Positions 5,729 to 37,429 of a stretch of DNA of 37,429 bases are shown here, in pieces (within the stretch, counting starts at the first letter, position 1; every line of letters starts with the position of its first letter). The stretch comes from a virus. The stretch spans positions 1 to 37,429 of the IMG/VR virus record IMGVR_UViG_3300033153_006263; one strand, given 5' to 3'. The notes beneath the pieces were generated by a model. It made no database searches. It was not told where the DNA came from and worked only from the letters and a program-made list of their open reading frames with translations. Both the position numbers and the translations under genes were made by a program.

Positions 5729-7819
5729 ATGGCACAATTATTAAAAGCATTAGAAAACGATGATCACTCTCATATTATCCTTGTTAAGGACGATGGAACT
5801 GGTACAACTTCTCCTGGTCTAATAAATGGTCATGTTCACGATGTTTTTATTGATGAAAATGGAATAGTTATCGTTGAAGAGGCAGATGGCCATGGGCACG
5901 AATCTATTCAGGTTGAACTAGAAGAAGAGGAAAAACCGTCCGTTAAGGGTAGAGATGAAGAAATACTAGATGAGTCTCTGGTTTTATTGCGACAAGCGAT
6001 TGAAATTGATCGCGATTTTAGGACTCGTGGTAAAACTGCCTACGATTTCTATAAGGGAGATCAATGGAAGGCTCAGGACAGATCAGATTTAGAGGCTAAT
6101 CAAAGAGCAGCAATTACTGTTAATGAGATAAGGTCGCTTGTAAATGCACTTTCAGGCCTGCAAAGACAAAATCGTACAGATATAAAATACCTCTCCATTG
6201 AGAAACATTCTCCTATGGGAGCTGAAATCGCTAATATTATTGTTAAATGGATTCTAGATAAGTCTAATTTTGCTCATCATGAATCTAAAGTTTTTATTGA
6301 TGGCCTTGTAACTGGTCGTGGCCTATGGAATCTGTTCTCTGAAGAAGATAAAAATGGAAATATTTTATTGTTAGCTCCTAGATTTAGATGGGACATGGTA
6401 TTTTTTGGGCCACATGAAGAGGAAGATCTTCGAGATTTAGAGTATCAAATTAAATCTAAATGGTTTTCATTGGCCAAGTTAAAGGCAATGTATCCTATTA
6501 AGGCAAAAGAACTAGAACAGGATATGGAAAGAGTTGAAGATAGGAAGTTTCATATAGTAAGAAAAGGTCAGCAATATACAGTCGACCAAGATAATGCGGC
6601 TACATTAGATATTTTTATAGATAATGAGTTAGTTGTTGATGTTCAAAAGAAGTCATTTCGACTATTTGAATTATATAGAAAAAAATATCAAAACATTAAG
6701 AAGCTTTTATATACAGATGATGATGGTAACGAGATAACATTTGATGATTCATGTCGGTTTTCTAAAGAAGATTTTCGAATGGGAAAGAAAATAGAGGGAG
6801 TTTCTGTTGTAAATACAACTGATTTCCACATTGAAGTAATTACATTTGCTGGAGAGACTATTCTTGATAAGAGGATATCCTTATTAGATGACTTTATGGT
6901 GATTCCATATTATGTGAGTAAGGACGATGATTACATTCAAGGAAAAGTTGAGTCATTAATAGACCTCCAAAAAGAGATTAATAAAAGACATTCTCAGGCG
7001 ATAGATGTTGTTAATAGGGCAAATAATGATGGATGGTTTTATGATGATCAAACATTTGCTAATAGAAATGAAGAGAGAAAGTTTGAAGAACAGGCGAATG
7101 CCCCTGGTTGGTCAATTAAGTTAAGAGACATGGGTAGGGTTCCTCAAAAGGTTGAGAGAGGACGATTCCCTTCTGAGCTTGTTAACATGAGAGAGTTAGC
7201 TTCTTCTAAGATGCGTCAAATATCTGGAATTAATGAAGAGGTTCTCGGAGAGCAGTCTAATGCCAAGTCTGGTGTTGCCATTATGAGACGTCTTAGGCAA
7301 GGAATGGTCGTAAATGACTTTTTATTCGATAATCTTTCACTATCTAAAAAGAAGCTTGGTGAAGTTATCATTAAGATGGTTCAGAAGCTGTATGGTCCTG
7401 AAGATATTATAAAGATACTGAGAGACCAAAACATACAAGAAAAGATTAATTTGCCCGTAAGGGGAGAGGATGGCGTTGAGCAGGTTGAACTAGATGTTAT
7501 TACAGACGAAACTTTATTGGAATTCTTAAGAAATGAAGATTTCACTACTTACTCCGTATCAATATCTGAATCTGCAAATACACCAACTAAGAATATGGAT
7601 AGATTTATCGCGCTAACTGAAGTCATGTCTCAAGGAATTCTTAACCCAATTTCAATAGAACTTGCTAAACAAGCAGGAATATTATCTCCTGCTATTGCTG
7701 ATAAATTTAATGCAATGTTACAAGAACAGGCTCAAGTTCAGGCACAGTCTGAGCAGGCAAAAAACCAAACAGAACTACTAAAGTCTGGTGTTCCTCCTCA
7801 GATTGTTCAGCAAATCTAA
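5729..7819 (+). CDS. Portal protein (P22-like)
   Basis: The protein has 696 aa, close to the P22 portal (725 aa). From about residue 75 the pattern is that of P22-type portals: helical wing DFRTRGKTAYDFYKGDQW, then NQRAAITVNEIRSLVNALSGLQRQNR, EVLGEQSNAKSGVAIMRRLRQG near the stem, and a Gln-rich helical C-terminus. It forms the dodecameric DNA gateway at one capsid vertex and docks terminase and the gp4-like adaptor. The first ~70 residues are unusual: an acidic segment with HSH, HVH and HGH pairs (residues about 13-60) that looks like an added small domain. Start ATG 5729 follows AAAGG. The 247-bp DnaA-box region follows the stop. Confidence 0.92.
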   Translation: MAQLLKALENDDHSHIILVKDDGTGTTSPGLINGHVHDVFIDENGIVIVEEADGHGHESIQVELEEEEKPSVKGRDEEILDESLVLLRQAIEIDRDFRTRGKTAYDFYKGDQWKAQDRSDLEANQRAAITVNEIRSLVNALSGLQRQNRTDIKYLSIEKHSPMGAEIANIIVKWILDKSNFAHHESKVFIDGLVTGRGLWNLFSEEDKNGNILLLAPRFRWDMVFFGPHEEEDLRDLEYQIKSKWFSLAKLKAMYPIKAKELEQDMERVEDRKFHIVRKGQQYTVDQDNAATLDIFIDNELVVDVQKKSFRLFELYRKKYQNIKKLLYTDDDGNEITFDDSCRFSKEDFRMGKKIEGVSVVNTTDFHIEVITFAGETILDKRISLLDDFMVIPYYVSKDDDYIQGKVESLIDLQKEINKRHSQAIDVVNRANNDGWFYDDQTFANRNEERKFEEQANAPGWSIKLRDMGRVPQKVERGRFPSELVNMRELASSKMRQISGINEEVLGEQSNAKSGVAIMRRLRQGMVVNDFLFDNLSLSKKKLGEVIIKMVQKLYGPEDIIKILRDQNIQEKINLPVRGEDGVEQVELDVITDETLLEFLRNEDFTTYSVSISESANTPTKNMDRFIALTEVMSQGILNPISIELAKQAGILSPAIADKFNAMLQEQAQVQAQSEQAKNQTELLKSGVPPQIVQQI

Positions 7820-8066
7820 ACTTATCATTCTTATCTAAACTTATACAGACTTATGTAAGCTTATGCTTAATAATATTTTCTTTTTTTCTATTAATAAGTA
7901 AAGTTATCAACAAGTTATCCACAAGTTATCCACAGTTTTTACATTGTTAGATTCTATGATATTATTATTTTAGAGTTATCCACAGATTATCAACAAGTTA
8001 TCAACATATGGTAACTGGATATAAGGATAGCCAGGGAATACATTATCCCGAGAAAGGAAAAAGGAA
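7820..8066. other. Candidate replication origin with phased DnaA boxes
   Basis: This gap between portal and scaffold has no gene. It holds six forward DnaA boxes in two triplets. The first is TTATCAACA at 7904, TTATCCACA at 7915 and TTATCCACA at 7926. The second is TTATCCACA at 7976, TTATCAACA at 7987 and TTATCAACA at 7998. Each triplet has an exact 11-bp period (9-bp box plus 2 bp). They are separated by a very AT-rich stretch (7935-7975). Upstream, TTAT recurs with a 10-bp step at 7831, 7841, 7851 and 7861, including the near-box TTATACAGA. Runs of A/T at 7865-7900 could melt. In bacterial oriC, arrays with 2-bp gaps guide DnaA oligomers, so this looks like a host-DnaA-dependent origin. A DnaA-titrating site is the alternative. 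Confidence 0.8.
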
Positions 8067-9005
8067 ATGGGAGAAGAGATATCTAGTGTATCTAGTGACA
8101 ACAGCGAAGGCTCATTAGAAACAATTTCAAAGGAGGATGTTCAATCGTTAACAGATGAGCAATTGAATAATCTAACTAAGGGAGCTGATGATGAACAGGT
8201 TCCTGATGATGACGGAGTTGGAGATGAAGATAAAGAAAGCAGTACAGAGTCGGATGAGACGGAAGAGAAACAAGAAGATTCTTCTGTTGATAAAAAAGAT
8301 TCCGAGGATGATTCTGAATCTATTTCTCTAACGGATAAGTTAGCTGAGTTAGAAAAAACGATAGCTGGACTTAAGAAAAGTAATAAGGATAGAGATGGAT
8401 GGATTGGTAAGCGCGATAATGATATTGGCACGCTTAGAAAACAAATAACTCTCTACGAAGATAAGATAAAAGGTTTAGAGGGAAGTCTAGATGAAGCTTA
8501 TGATCTTAATAGAAGCGACCAACGTCGTATTGAGGATGAAATAAGAGGATTCGAGACTGCAAAGAGTAATGATCTGAGTCAACTTGCGAATTATGAGAAT
8601 GAATCAACCGTATTAAATAATGTTCCAGAATTTGAAAGTATAAAGGAAGAGGTTTATAACCAATTCATACTTGAGAATCCTGGAAAAGATTTATCCGGTT
8701 TAAAAGATAAGTTCTTAAATGATCCGTATAGTGATGATGCATCATTTCTTGTTCCTTTAGCAAATAGAACTAAAAGGCGTATAGAAAAAGAAGAGTTTCA
8801 GCGTCAGATAGATGACTTAAAGTCACCTGGTAAGAAAGGTTCTGTTAATAGGTCTAAAAAGGCTAAAAACTTATCTTCCGCTACATCGACTAATGGAGGA
8901 ACAACGGGTTCTTCATTAGAGAATGTTGGAAAGTTAGATATTCAAAGCATGTCCGATTCTCAGCTTAACGAATTCATCAAGAAATCAAAAAACTCAAGGA
9001 GATAA
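8067..9005 (+). CDS. Scaffolding protein
   Basis: The gene encodes 312 aa directly upstream of the coat gene, the standard position of the scaffold. The first ~90 residues are strongly acidic and disordered (DDEQVPDDDGVGDEDKESS). A long coiled coil follows at about 90-160. A basic C-terminus (residues about 255-312, KKGSVNRSKKAKN) matches the positively charged coat-binding end of P22-type scaffolds. It directs procapsid assembly and then leaves. The ribosome site AAAGGAAAAAGGAA precedes ATG 8067. There is no sign of a protease domain. Identification rests on position, composition and length. Confidence 0.85.
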   Translation: MGEEISSVSSDNSEGSLETISKEDVQSLTDEQLNNLTKGADDEQVPDDDGVGDEDKESSTESDETEEKQEDSSVDKKDSEDDSESISLTDKLAELEKTIAGLKKSNKDRDGWIGKRDNDIGTLRKQITLYEDKIKGLEGSLDEAYDLNRSDQRRIEDEIRGFETAKSNDLSQLANYENESTVLNNVPEFESIKEEVYNQFILENPGKDLSGLKDKFLNDPYSDDASFLVPLANRTKRRIEKEEFQRQIDDLKSPGKKGSVNRSKKAKNLSSATSTNGGTTGSSLENVGKLDIQSMSDSQLNEFIKKSKNSRR

Positions 9006-9008
9006 AGA

Positions 9009-10052
9009 ATGGCTAAGACCGCATTTTTGACGACTGATGCTTTGACCAGAAAAATCTGGTTAGCAAATAATGAACAATTATTTAGGGATGCAATGAAAGA
9101 ATCTTATTTCTTTCCTAAATTTGCATCTGATTCTAAAAACTCAATTGTTTATGTAAAGAATGAACTGACAAAAGAAAAAGGTGATAACATCACTTTTGGT
9201 ATCAGAATGAGATTGCTTGGGACAGGTGTTACATCTGGAACAGCTCTTGAAGGAAAAGAAGAAAGTTTAACAACGTTTAACTATAACGTTTCATTAGAAG
9301 AGTTCGCACATGCTGTTCGTGATGCTGGGCCCCTAGATCGACAACGAAGTCCATTTGACGTTGACATGGAGTCTATTGATGCATTGCGTGACTGGATGAG
9401 CGAGAAAATTGATCTTGAATTGTTTAATGCTCTTCAAGCTACTGGTAATGAGCCAACTACTGTTTTCTATAATAATAATGGAGTTCCAACAAAATCTACA
9501 TCATTCTCAACCGTTAAGGCTGACTTGAATGCAACACAAGATTTGATTGTCCCTTCTGTTATATCTGCAATGAAAACATGGGCATTGACTGGTGGAAACA
9601 GGACTCAAACTCCACTTCGACCAATTATGGTTAATGGCCGACCTCACTATGTTCTACTTTGTCACCCTGATGTTATATATGATCTTAAACAAGACTCTAC
9701 ATATAACCAGGCATATAGAGAAGCTGGAATTCGTGGTGATGAGAACCCTATTTTTAGTGGAGCTGTAGGTATCTGGGATGGTGTTGTTGTTCATGAGCAT
9801 GAGAATGTTCAGATCGGTACAGATGCTGGCGCTGGATCAGTTCCTTTTGCACACAATCATTTCTTCGGCGCACAGGCACTTTGTTGGGCTTGGGGTCAGC
9901 GAACAGAATTGGTTGCAGAAGAATTTGATTATGAGCGTGAGCATGGATTTGCTATTTCTATGATTTCCTCTTCTGGAAAACCAAAGTTCAATAGTAAAGA
10001 CTATGGTGTTATTGGATTTTTGTCAGCTAGAACTCAAATTTCTGACGCATAG
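9009..10052 (+). CDS. Major capsid protein, N4-gp56/P22-like family
   Basis: The protein has 347 aa and starts 3 nt after the scaffold stop. Recognisable features of the N4-gp56 family are the opening (FLTTDALTRKIWLANNEQLFRDAMKESYF), the E-loop-like segment LEGKEESLTTFNYNVSLEEFAHAVRD, and PIMVNGRPHYVLLCHPDVIYDLK. The conserved WDGVVVHEHENV lies near residue 255. It forms the HK97-fold icosahedral shell. Codon use looks the same as its neighbours. A strong hairpin follows the stop (10067-10088), likely protecting or tapering this abundant message. Confidence 0.92.
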   Translation: MAKTAFLTTDALTRKIWLANNEQLFRDAMKESYFFPKFASDSKNSIVYVKNELTKEKGDNITFGIRMRLLGTGVTSGTALEGKEESLTTFNYNVSLEEFAHAVRDAGPLDRQRSPFDVDMESIDALRDWMSEKIDLELFNALQATGNEPTTVFYNNNGVPTKSTSFSTVKADLNATQDLIVPSVISAMKTWALTGGNRTQTPLRPIMVNGRPHYVLLCHPDVIYDLKQDSTYNQAYREAGIRGDENPIFSGAVGIWDGVVVHEHENVQIGTDAGAGSVPFAHNHFFGAQALCWAWGQRTELVAEEFDYEREHGFAISMISSSGKPKFNSKDYGVIGFLSARTQISDA

Positions 10053-24959: not shown

Positions 24960-25937
24960 TTACTGAAAATTATTTTCAGGATCCTTCTTTTGTTCAATCT
25001 CATTAAGACCCCACTCACCCTCACTTGTTAGGTCATATGAGAATAGTTTAAACCCATCTTGGTATGTTTTAGATAGACCATCAAATACTTTCTGCCCTAT
25101 CCTATTCGTTGAAGCTCCTGATCGTGACTTAGGGGTATAGAACAGTGTCGGGTATAGCCTCTTCTCGTTGTCATAGCCCTGATAGAATGGTGATGTAAAA
25201 ACGATGGTGTGTGCAATTTTATAGATATCTGACGATCCATAGATATCTTCTTGGCCTATAAGTCCACGTTTACTTTGCCTCTTTCTAACATGTACTACTA
25301 ATATAATAGGCTTACTATAGTTTTCGACAACGCTATTGATTGCCTTCATAATATCTCGCTGTTGCATGAGTTCGTTCTGGTCTTCAAAGAAGTCAAAGTA
25401 ATGGAAGTGGTCAATGACGATGAGGTCTACCTCGTCCTTTACCTCAAGTATCTTATCGCTGAAGTTTCGCTTATTGAGCCCTGATTTCTTTGTATATAGG
25501 TAAACATTTTTTATCTTTTTATAGACTTCTTTCTCAGCCAGATCCTCATAGCTCTCGATCCCTTTTATTTTATTTAATCTAAAGTTCATGTAATTGAGAT
25601 TGTCTGGCATCTGATGTCTGTGGTACCGGTGGTCTTCTTTTATTTTATTATAAATAAATTTCCATTTCTCGGTATCAGCGAACTCGTAGATGTCTCCCTC
25701 TAGCCGAAAGAAAGCAATCTTCCTTCCCTTCATTGAGTTATGGATGCAGATCTCTGAGACTAAGGTCGTTTTTCCCTTGCCTGACTCGGCACCTAGCAGG
25801 ATGAGTTCTTTGTTGTGGATTCCCCCTAGATGTTCATCTAAGAAGTCGATTCCGTACTCACATAAGTTATTTGGATTTATAGAACGACGATACCGACTAG
25901 ATTGAGGAATATACTCCTCAGCCTTAATAAAATTCAT
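24960..25937 (-). CDS. DnaB/RecA-type replicative ATPase
   Basis: The gene encodes 325 aa. Walker A is GAESGKGKTT at residues 49-58, and Walker B is DLIVIDHFHY at about 171-180. A later Q/H-type strand (KPIILVVHVRK), then GSSDIYKIAHTIVF, and a basic RSGAST stretch match the C-terminal RecA fold of DnaB-type helicases. There is no N-terminal DnaB primase-binding domain, so it is a short helicase or DnaB-like ATPase loaded by another factor, perhaps the protein at 30137. ATG 25937 has an AAGGGG site. It heads the unit with rusA. Confidence 0.85.
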   Translation of the reverse strand: MNFIKAEEYIPQSSRYRRSINPNNLCEYGIDFLDEHLGGIHNKELILLGAESGKGKTTLVSEICIHNSMKGRKIAFFRLEGDIYEFADTEKWKFIYNKIKEDHRYHRHQMPDNLNYMNFRLNKIKGIESYEDLAEKEVYKKIKNVYLYTKKSGLNKRNFSDKILEVKDEVDLIVIDHFHYFDFFEDQNELMQQRDIMKAINSVVENYSKPIILVVHVRKRQSKRGLIGQEDIYGSSDIYKIAHTIVFTSPFYQGYDNEKRLYPTLFYTPKSRSGASTNRIGQKVFDGLSKTYQDGFKLFSYDLTSEGEWGLNEIEQKKDPENNFQ

Positions 25938-27258: not shown

Positions 27259-27331
27259 ATACTCTGACAGTCAAATTGAATTTGAGCTTAAAAACACCCA
27301 AAAAGCCCTAAAACATACTCTGACAGTCAAA
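27259..27331. repeat. Pair of 17-bp direct repeats with TGACAGTCA dyad
   Basis: ATACTCTGACAGTCAAA occurs at 27259-27275 and exactly again at 27315-27331. Each copy contains the perfect 9-bp dyad TGACAGTCA. A related dyad, TGTCAG-TT-CTGACA, lies at 34644-34657 in the other control region, so both may bind one regulator. Confidence 0.65.
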
Positions 27332-27386
27332 ATAGTTTTTTCTGGAAGGCCGTAACAGGTGATTTCTAAAATTTCACCCATGGCAT

Positions 27387-30136: not shown

Positions 30137-30907
30137 TTAAAATATTTTATGAGTTATTGTTTTTTTGATCTTTTCTTCTCCCGCTACTGCCTCTAGCTCT
30201 CTATCTACCTTATTCATAATAGATTCAAGGCTGTAGTCCATCTTGGATTCCTCGTAAGGCAAGAAGTCCATCCAGTTGTTAAACCAGGTAGATCCGTCTC
30301 TAAATGGCCTGTACTGCCCTTTTTGCCTATCCTTTTTGACGTATTCCAAATAATAGTAAAAGCTATTCCAGATTTTAATTATTTTCTGGTGATCATTCTT
30401 AATATCATTTTTCCAAAGCTTTTCGGCAGAAGGCTTGCCCGCTTTCTTTGGGTACCTCTTCCAAAGCTGTTCAAAAGCAGAATGTTCTTGCTCTTTAGGT
30501 CCTTCATCTTGGTTAATAAGGACAGGTTGAGTATAGGTTTGTTTGTGCTCATAGCTTTCCTCCTCGCATAATCTTTCAACTATGCTTGTTAGTTTAATAA
30601 AATTAATGAGTTCAATCATTTTTTTTAGCTGCTCGTTTTCTACCTCATATGGCAGCTGAAACGTTTGTTCAGCCACATCTGGCGTCATTCTCTCGTATCT
30701 AATCCCTCCCTCAAGTAGGTCAAGGTATCGTTGATTCTTACTTTGCTTCTCGTATACCGGGTAAGGCAACATGATCTTTTCATATAGCTGAACTGGTATA
30801 GATAGGCTAGGAGTTCTAACCTTCTTGCTTTTAGCTATCTTAATAAGAACCTCGTTATCCTCTTTGTCTATCTTAACGGATACTCTTCGTGATTTTCGTT
30901 TAGCCAT
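30137..30907 (-). CDS. Putative replication initiator/helicase loader
   Basis: The gene encodes 256 aa. The C-terminal module SAFEQLWKRYPKKAGKPSAE, then LWKN, and finally STWFNNWMDF (about residues 141-215) matches the C-terminal domain found in phage replication proteins and DnaT/DnaD-like loaders. The first 60 residues are basic (MAKRKSRRVSVKIDKEDNE), a possible DNA-binding arm. It would load host DnaB or the phage ATPase (24960) at the origin. It starts 3 nt after the nuclease gene's stop region in the leftward block. Confidence 0.7.
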   Translation of the reverse strand: MAKRKSRRVSVKIDKEDNEVLIKIAKSKKVRTPSLSIPVQLYEKIMLPYPVYEKQSKNQRYLDLLEGGIRYERMTPDVAEQTFQLPYEVENEQLKKMIELINFIKLTSIVERLCEEESYEHKQTYTQPVLINQDEGPKEQEHSAFEQLWKRYPKKAGKPSAEKLWKNDIKNDHQKIIKIWNSFYYYLEYVKKDRQKGQYRPFRDGSTWFNNWMDFLPYEESKMDYSLESIMNKVDRELEAVAGEEKIKKTITHKIF

Positions 30908-34285: not shown

Positions 34286-34442
34286 TTTAGTCCCTTTCTA
34301 GCGTTGTTATTGTCTGTTCTAGGTTGAATTGTTACTGTTTAGCCTCATTTCATTAGATTTAAATGTTTACCTGAGTTAATATACCCCAAGTTAACATCGT
34401 TTACTTATGGAAAGAATGTGATGTGTTTTCCCTAGTATATAC

Positions 34443-34509
34443 AGTATAGATAGTATAATAGATATCTATACTAGTAATACTTAAGTATATACTGTATACT
34501 ATCTATACT
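34443..34509. repeat. 15-bp inverted repeat in AT-rich array
   Basis: AGTATAGATAGTATA (34443-34457) and TATACTATCTATACT (34495-34509) are perfect inverted copies. CTTAAGTATATAC also occurs twice (34480 and 34508). The array could be a regulator-binding region or a second origin-like element. Confidence 0.6.
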
Positions 34510-34643
34510 TAAGTATATACAGCATAGACTGTATAACTCTTAATACTCTTAATAATAAAATATATTCTTTCTTTACTCTTATTTTTCTTTCTTATAGATA
34601 AAACTCGTTACGTTAGCTGTCTTACCTGAGCAAAAACAGGATC

Positions 34644-35004: not shown

Positions 35005-35031
35005 GGCGGGGGTATAGGGGGGTATGGGGGG
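35005..35031 (+). other. G-rich tract on the plus strand
   Basis: Runs of G (GG, C, five G, then two runs of six G separated by TATA and TAT). It mirrors the C-rich tract at 27722 in opposite orientation. It lies about 26 bp upstream of the 35057 promoter. Confidence 0.55.
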
Positions 35032-35056
35032 TATAAAACAAGCCTATATAGCTATA

Positions 35057-36058: not shown

Positions 36059-36065
36059 GCAATCG

Positions 36066-36148
36066 TGGATGAGGTGGGAATCGAACCTATATGAGTATAA
36101 CTCAATAGATTTACAGTCTACCGCAAATTCCCGCATTGCCTCTCATCC
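36066..36148 (-). tRNA. tRNA-Tyr(GTA)
   Basis: The 83-nt class II tRNA is read on the minus strand. The acceptor stem GGATGAG/CTCATCC is perfect (7 bp). The D-arm GCAA/TTGC is present. The anticodon stem GTAGA/TCTAT carries loop CTGTAAA with anticodon GTA. A long variable arm (TGAGT-TAT-ACTCA), as expected for bacterial Tyr, follows. The T-loop TTCGATT is intact, but the T-stem (ATAGG with CCCAC) has two A-C mismatches. No CCA is encoded. The gene runs opposite to its neighbours. Confidence 0.87.
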
Positions 36149-36402: not shown

Positions 36403-37429
36403 ATGAGCCGGGAAAGTTCATCTAAAGTAAATGATCTATTTTTTAAGTGGCGATACAATCCGTATTCGTTCGTCACGGAAGCGCTTGGCGCCAAACCTCT
36501 CGATTTTAAAAAAGATAATCCTCATACAAAAACAGTAACTACACAACAAAAAGAAGTCCTGGATATTCTAGGAAAGTACGCCTATGTGCTTAAAAAGAAG
36601 CAGAATAATCACGAAATACTAGAAGAAGAGAAGTATCTTCTAAAGAAAATGGGCATATCTATTAAGTCTGGAAAGGGACCTGGAAAGACGACTCTTATGG
36701 CATGGTCTGTTATTTGGTTTCTTTGCTGTTTTCCAAAATCTGTTATTCCTTGTACAGCCCCTAAATTAGATCAAGTAAAGGATGTGCTCTGGAGAGAAGT
36801 CGCGAAATGGATCGATATTAGTCGAAAGGAAGGGAAGTATGGGGATGCGATCTTTAATTCTATCGTTATTCAAGGCGAAAAAATTTATATGGATACGAAG
36901 GTTGGTAATATTAAGGGGAATTCAGGTAAGGAATGGTATGCAATTGCTCGGTCCGCATCTACAAGTCAATCTCCTGACGCACCTGCTGAAACTCTTCAGG
37001 GATTTCACGCAGAACATATGATGATCATCGTCGATGAAGCTTCTGGTGTTCCCGACAATGTATTCATGCCGCTCGATACTACCCTGACCGATATATGCAA
37101 CTTCATGTTGATGACCTATAACCCTAACCGAACAAGCGGATTCGCCTACCGATCTCACCATAACGATCGAATGGACTGGATTTGCTTTCGATGGAACTGT
37201 GAAGAGTCCGAAAATGTATCTCAAGAGTCTATAGAAAGAGTCGCGCGCAAGTATGGGAAAGACAGTAATGCGTATCGAATTAATGTTCTTGGATTAGAGC
37301 CTGTAGGTGATAATGAGTCGGTTATTCCCCTGGAATGGGTCCAAAATGCGGTAGAAAGAGATATCGTTTCTACTCCTGACGATCCTACATTTAGTGGAGT
37401 AGACGTCGCGCGGCAGGGTGGTGATAAAT
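36403..37429 (+). CDS. terL: Terminase large subunit, N-terminal ATPase part
   Basis: This is the 5' part of the packaging ATPase. It starts at ATG 36403 and runs off the end of the window, joining base 3 of the left end (527 aa in total). The Walker A-type P-loop is SGKGPGKTT at residues 89-97, and Walker B is MMIIVDE at about 206-212. A downstream coupling motif (FMLMTYNPNRTSG) is typical of large terminases. The ribosome site before 36403 is weak, so translation may depend on the preceding gene. It packages DNA into the procapsid through the portal. See the entry at 1-596 for the nuclease domain. Confidence 0.95.
   Translation, partial: MSRESSSKVNDLFFKWRYNPYSFVTEALGAKPLDFKKDNPHTKTVTTQQKEVLDILGKYAYVLKKKQNNHEILEEEKYLLKKMGISIKSGKGPGKTTLMAWSVIWFLCCFPKSVIPCTAPKLDQVKDVLWREVAKWIDISRKEGKYGDAIFNSIVIQGEKIYMDTKVGNIKGNSGKEWYAIARSASTSQSPDAPAETLQGFHAEHMMIIVDEASGVPDNVFMPLDTTLTDICNFMLMTYNPNRTSGFAYRSHHNDRMDWICFRWNCEESENVSQESIERVARKYGKDSNAYRINVLGLEPVGDNESVIPLEWVQNAVERDIVSTPDDPTFSGVDVARQGGDK
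37391..37429. repeat. Terminal direct repeat, right copy
   Basis: Identical to 1-39; see the left copy. It lies within the terL coding sequence, at codons of the nuclease motif GVDVARQGGDK. Confidence 0.93.

Follow-up and report, generated by a model that had tools for sequence, protein, structure and literature searches.

A phased DnaA-box array at a predicted capsid-gene promoter in the portal-scaffold gap of a phage genome

In a phage genome, six DnaA boxes are arranged in two phased triplets that flank a predicted promoter between the portal gene and the putative scaffold gene. The best explanation, held with about even confidence, is that the array is a landing site for host DnaA which would control the promoter of the scaffold and capsid genes. 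The phage may use host DnaA to time the production of its shell. That phages hold back capsid production until their genomes are numerous enough is usually credited to phage-encoded late regulators. If the proposed control is true, a host replication initiator at the capsid promoter would directly link capsid production to genome number. The window, as used here, is the entire 37,429-nt virus record IMGVR_UViG_3300033153_006263 and not the array alone. Its ends (1-39 and 37391-37429) share an exact 39-bp overlap inside the large terminase gene, and the genome is therefore circularly closed. For host assignment, a phage search gave no match and genome scans gave no close prophage.

The gap is 247 bp long. 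It is bordered upstream by the P22-like portal protein gene (5729-7819, plus strand; Pfam PF16510, E 5.6e-83) and ends with a purine-rich ribosome-binding region (8050-8066, plus strand) in front of the putative scaffold gene (8067-9005, plus strand). The latter was assigned by its position between portal and coat genes and by alignment. Its product has an acidic N-terminus and is 24% identical to the counterpart in relative L002; a family search with this protein gave no match. The major capsid protein gene follows at 9009-10052 on the plus strand (phrog_334, E 3.2e-62).

All six boxes lie on the plus strand and have at most one mismatch; as in a DnaA titration locus, several high-affinity boxes are thus present. 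Triplet 1 (7904-7934) consists of TTATCAACA at 7904 and the perfect TTATCCACA at 7915 and 7926, while triplet 2 (7976-8006) starts with a perfect TTATCCACA at 7976, followed by TTATCAACA at 7987 and 7998. Within each triplet the steps are exactly 11 bp, leaving 2-bp spacers, and the step between the triplets is 50 bp, which is not a multiple of 11. As a chance control, 200 Markov-1 sequences as long as the window and of noncoding composition were searched for boxes with at most one mismatch. These contained 0 box pairs phased at 11 bp, whereas the window has chains of three. The two same-direction triplets described in the initial annotation are thereby confirmed, and so is the AT-rich nature of the gap: its best 150-bp stretch (7823-7972) is the second least stable of the genome by nearest-neighbour energies, and would be an unwinding element only if the gap were an origin. 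The upstream TTAT series with a period of about 10 bp, also reported there, is real in the form of CTTAT (7821-7864, plus strand). Its copies start at 7821, 7830, 7840, 7850 and 7860, so that the phasing is only roughly helical, the first step being 9 bp and the other three 10 bp. The series is absent in the relatives, and its copies were rejected as additional DnaA boxes because the CACA half is missing. In the literature searched, no earlier description of a DnaA-box array between portal and scaffold genes was found; the co-mention of DnaA box, portal protein and phage led to a bacterial genome paper.

Relatives were gathered by searches with the portal and coat proteins. In all three whose portals share 50% identity or more (L002, L059 and L060, the first and last also analysed as genomes G001 and G003), the same gap carries four to five phased boxes, some of them degenerate. 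These are TTATCCACA three times, TTGCTAACA and again TTATCCACA in L002; TTATCCACA, ATATACACA, TTGTAAACA and TTATCCACA in L059; and TTTTTCACA, TTGTCCACA twice and TTATCAACA in L060. The spacing is thus kept in close relatives, the test that the initial annotation had set for its own proposal. No array was seen in the portal-scaffold gap of relatives with portals less than 40% identical, and the searches with the two proteins gave no further relative with an array. The gaps of the three measure only 80-102 bp and hold, besides the array, little more than the start signal of the scaffold gene and a predicted sigma70 promoter. Since the array is retained while gap length and other sequence differ between the phages, selection is suggested. 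The claim that the triplets are host-DnaA sites is supported, and recruitment of DnaA is likely. Second phased arrays, without a strong promoter, occur in the early/terminase control region of both G001 (G001:C1:52-82, minus strand) and G003 (G003:C1:27370-27456, plus strand); the corresponding region of the window has no boxes. A G-run motif, GGGGGTATAGGGGGGTATGGGGGG, is found in the control region of the window (35008-35035), and its C-run counterpart lies beside the second array of G003 (about 27320-27365). Other features of the window include a cluster of AT-rich inverted repeats (34434-34536), which probably serve as operators and lie where the genome is least stable, and a tRNA-Tyr gene at 36065-36148 (minus strand).

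The predicted sigma70 promoter of the window (7938-7965, plus strand) consists of TTTACA (7938-7943), a 16-bp spacer and TATTAT (7960-7965), with a TGA before the -10 element (extended -10). Transcription is predicted to start near 7972. With scores based on the E. coli consensus, which may not be that of the host, the best plus-strand site beats shuffled sequences in all four gaps (window, L002, L059 and L060; p 0.01-0.035), and in the window it is the third-best plus-strand site genome-wide. The minus-strand score is lower in each of the four, by a slight difference in the window (11.8 against 12.8). When 7600-8300 was scanned with a generic consensus, there was no excess of promoter-like sites (3 against 2.5 in shuffles), and the case for the promoter therefore rests on position and comparison. 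Near-consensus promoters are found in the same gap of the box-less relatives L038, L039 and L040.

Relative to the predicted start, triplet 1 would extend from -68 to -38 and triplet 2 from +4 to +34. In the window, 3 bp lie between the end of the proximal box and the -35 element. The box abutting this element starts at -46 in the window and at -47 in L002, and its counterparts in L059 and L060 start at -46 and -47. In these three relatives the -35 hexamer itself is part of the next box, and the -35/-10 spacer holds a further good box. A similar arrangement was found in a second, unrelated family (L015/L320, coat family phrog_283, and relative L321), where boxes of the opposite orientation lie upstream of the scaffold gene. 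In L320 and L321 a box begins at -47, next to TTGCAT-17-TATAAT, and here too 3 bp separate the proximal box from the -35 element. In their relatives L322 and L323 the near-consensus promoter has been kept and the array is lacking. With the boxes fixed and the rest shuffled, register and score were reached together in 0.1% (window), 0.5% (L320) and 0.3% (L321) of trials, values to be read with the register having been noticed after the fact, on few and partly related sequences (L320 and L321 are close relatives). DnaA boxes that abut or overlap a predicted promoter, a feature of DnaA-regulated promoters, are thus present in the window, its three relatives and the second family.

A scan of viral sequences for phased triplets gave at least 130 loci, and the matches listed form 76 clusters in mixed contexts. 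Among these matches, the neighbouring genes code for replication initiators, terminase, primase/helicase and head protease. The idea that arrays generally mark viral promoters was rejected: among the matches listed, a promoter was associated at p<=0.05 in 13% of 70 clusters, against about 10% expected. The promoter reading is therefore limited to this gap and the second family. Two other arrays also lie in late operons, one just after the large terminase gene (L016, 1495-1525) and one directly after a gene and before the head protease gene (L179, 3286-3316). In the T7-like Escherichia phage P483 and Enterobacter phage phiEap-1 (L260 and L261), arrays followed by G-runs are located near the genome ends.

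For the control of the capsid promoter the following mechanism is proposed. DnaA would bind the triplets cooperatively, with the protein on triplet 1 abutting the -35 element and that on triplet 2 covering about +4 to +34. While phage genomes are few, DnaA would hold the promoter down. As the phage DNA is copied, its many boxes would titrate DnaA and the promoter would open, so that capsid production would track genome copy number. Repression relieved by titration is the preferred, if uncertain, sign of control; it is favoured because in L002, L059 and L060 the -35/-10 spacer contains a good box. Activators commonly sit near -42. Since the proximal box is centred near this position, DnaA could activate the promoter instead. 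The fuller proposal is tentative and rather doubtful: a genome-copy counter in which DnaA represses the capsid promoter through the array until the six boxes on each replicated genome have titrated it, and which arose separately in the second family. DnaA is a known transcription factor that stimulates lambda pR (PMC8203912, PMC7466680). In E. coli, multicopy boxes titrate DnaA and derepress dnaA, and there are about 200 monomers per origin (PMC5835720). From this figure, which may not apply to the host, it can be estimated that a few tens of phage genomes with six boxes each could plausibly suffice for titration. The promoter model leaves the AT-rich part of the window gap unexplained.

The initial annotation had read the gap as a possible origin inside the late operon. 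At such an origin DnaA would oligomerise, melt the adjacent AT-rich DNA and help to load a helicase, an activity that could coexist with the promoter. The phased cluster expected of an oriC-type origin is present, and in Thermotoga DnaA oligomers form best on boxes that point in one direction and are 2 bp apart (PMC10316083). The low stability of the window gap fits as well, and the G001 gap is also within the lowest 1%, but that of G003 is only in the 5-9% range and the short gaps of the relatives have neither a separate AT-rich element nor room for unwinding. No family-A DNA polymerase gene was found in the phage, which would also agree with an origin. However, the phage has its own replication module. 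It includes a DnaB-like helicase/ATPase (24960-25937, minus strand; PF03796 and phrog_19/239), and the statement that no initiator could be named has to be corrected: the C-terminal half of the protein encoded at 30137-30907 (minus strand) matches PHROG replication-initiation/primosomal families (phrog_270, E 3e-11). This protein is conserved in the array-bearing G001 and G003; it and the helicase are common to the array-bearing genomes and mostly missing in deeper relatives, which would also agree with an origin. DnaA-trios, sought as runs within 16 nt of the boxes (definition in PMC8287927), do not form a canonical run after triplet 1, and after triplet 2 there is one weak run at chance level. 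The remaining runs lie on the outward side, and such runs are common by chance in AT-rich DNA. As recognisable trios are missing in about 15% of bacterial origins (PMC8287927), their absence does not decide against an origin. The GC skew at four-fold sites has no significant flip at 8 kb; cumulative GC skew was rejected as an origin signal, as it follows gene direction. Furthermore, the second arrays of G001 and G003 make their early/terminase control region an equally good origin candidate. An origin is not the best reading; given the unusually AT-rich window gap, it keeps a minor share of the probability for this phage.

The boxes may also act mainly as a sink that absorbs host DnaA and keeps the host from starting further replication rounds; where they lie would then be incidental. 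Arrays do occur in many unrelated phages, including T7-like and T5-like ones. T7-like phages make their own polymerases. Multicopy boxes titrate DnaA in E. coli (PMC5835720), and titration may contribute to the mechanism. A sink could work from any position. The array has nevertheless kept to one gap while the portals diverged by about 50%, and in two families arrays keep register with a predicted promoter, so that a sink as the main role is improbable. Less probable still is that DnaA is not the ligand, the sites being bound by a phage protein or used in packaging or DNA entry. The arrays near T7-like genome ends would agree with such a role, and for a T5-like phage DnaA boxes have been named as one feature of the injection stop signal (PMC13250531). 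In divergent phages, however, the boxes agree with the DnaA consensus at every letter. Packaging was set aside because the array, in a circularly closed record, is about 7 kb away from the terminase genes.

The favoured reading, a capsid promoter controlled by host DnaA, can be compared with several known systems. The E. coli mioC and dnaA promoters likewise carry several DnaA boxes, some degenerate; they are repressed by DnaA and derepressed when multicopy boxes titrate it (PMC5835720). Unlike these chromosomal promoters, the window has evenly phased boxes at a predicted late-gene promoter of a phage. The action of host DnaA on a phage promoter is known from lambda pR (PMC8203912, PMC7466680) and is proposed here from the sequence; pR, however, is an early promoter linked to replication, whereas the window has a predicted capsid-gene promoter with a phased array. 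With bacterial oriC and other DnaA-oligomerising regions the window shares same-direction boxes, 2-bp spacing and an AT-rich neighbour (PMC10316083). It differs from them in having no canonical DnaA-trio, in relatives with no room for an unwinding element, and in the phage's own initiation-like protein. Titration loci of the datA type resemble the window, judged by its letters, in that strong boxes which could absorb DnaA are clustered (PMC5835720). In contrast to such loci, the position of the window's array is tied to a predicted promoter and conserved there.
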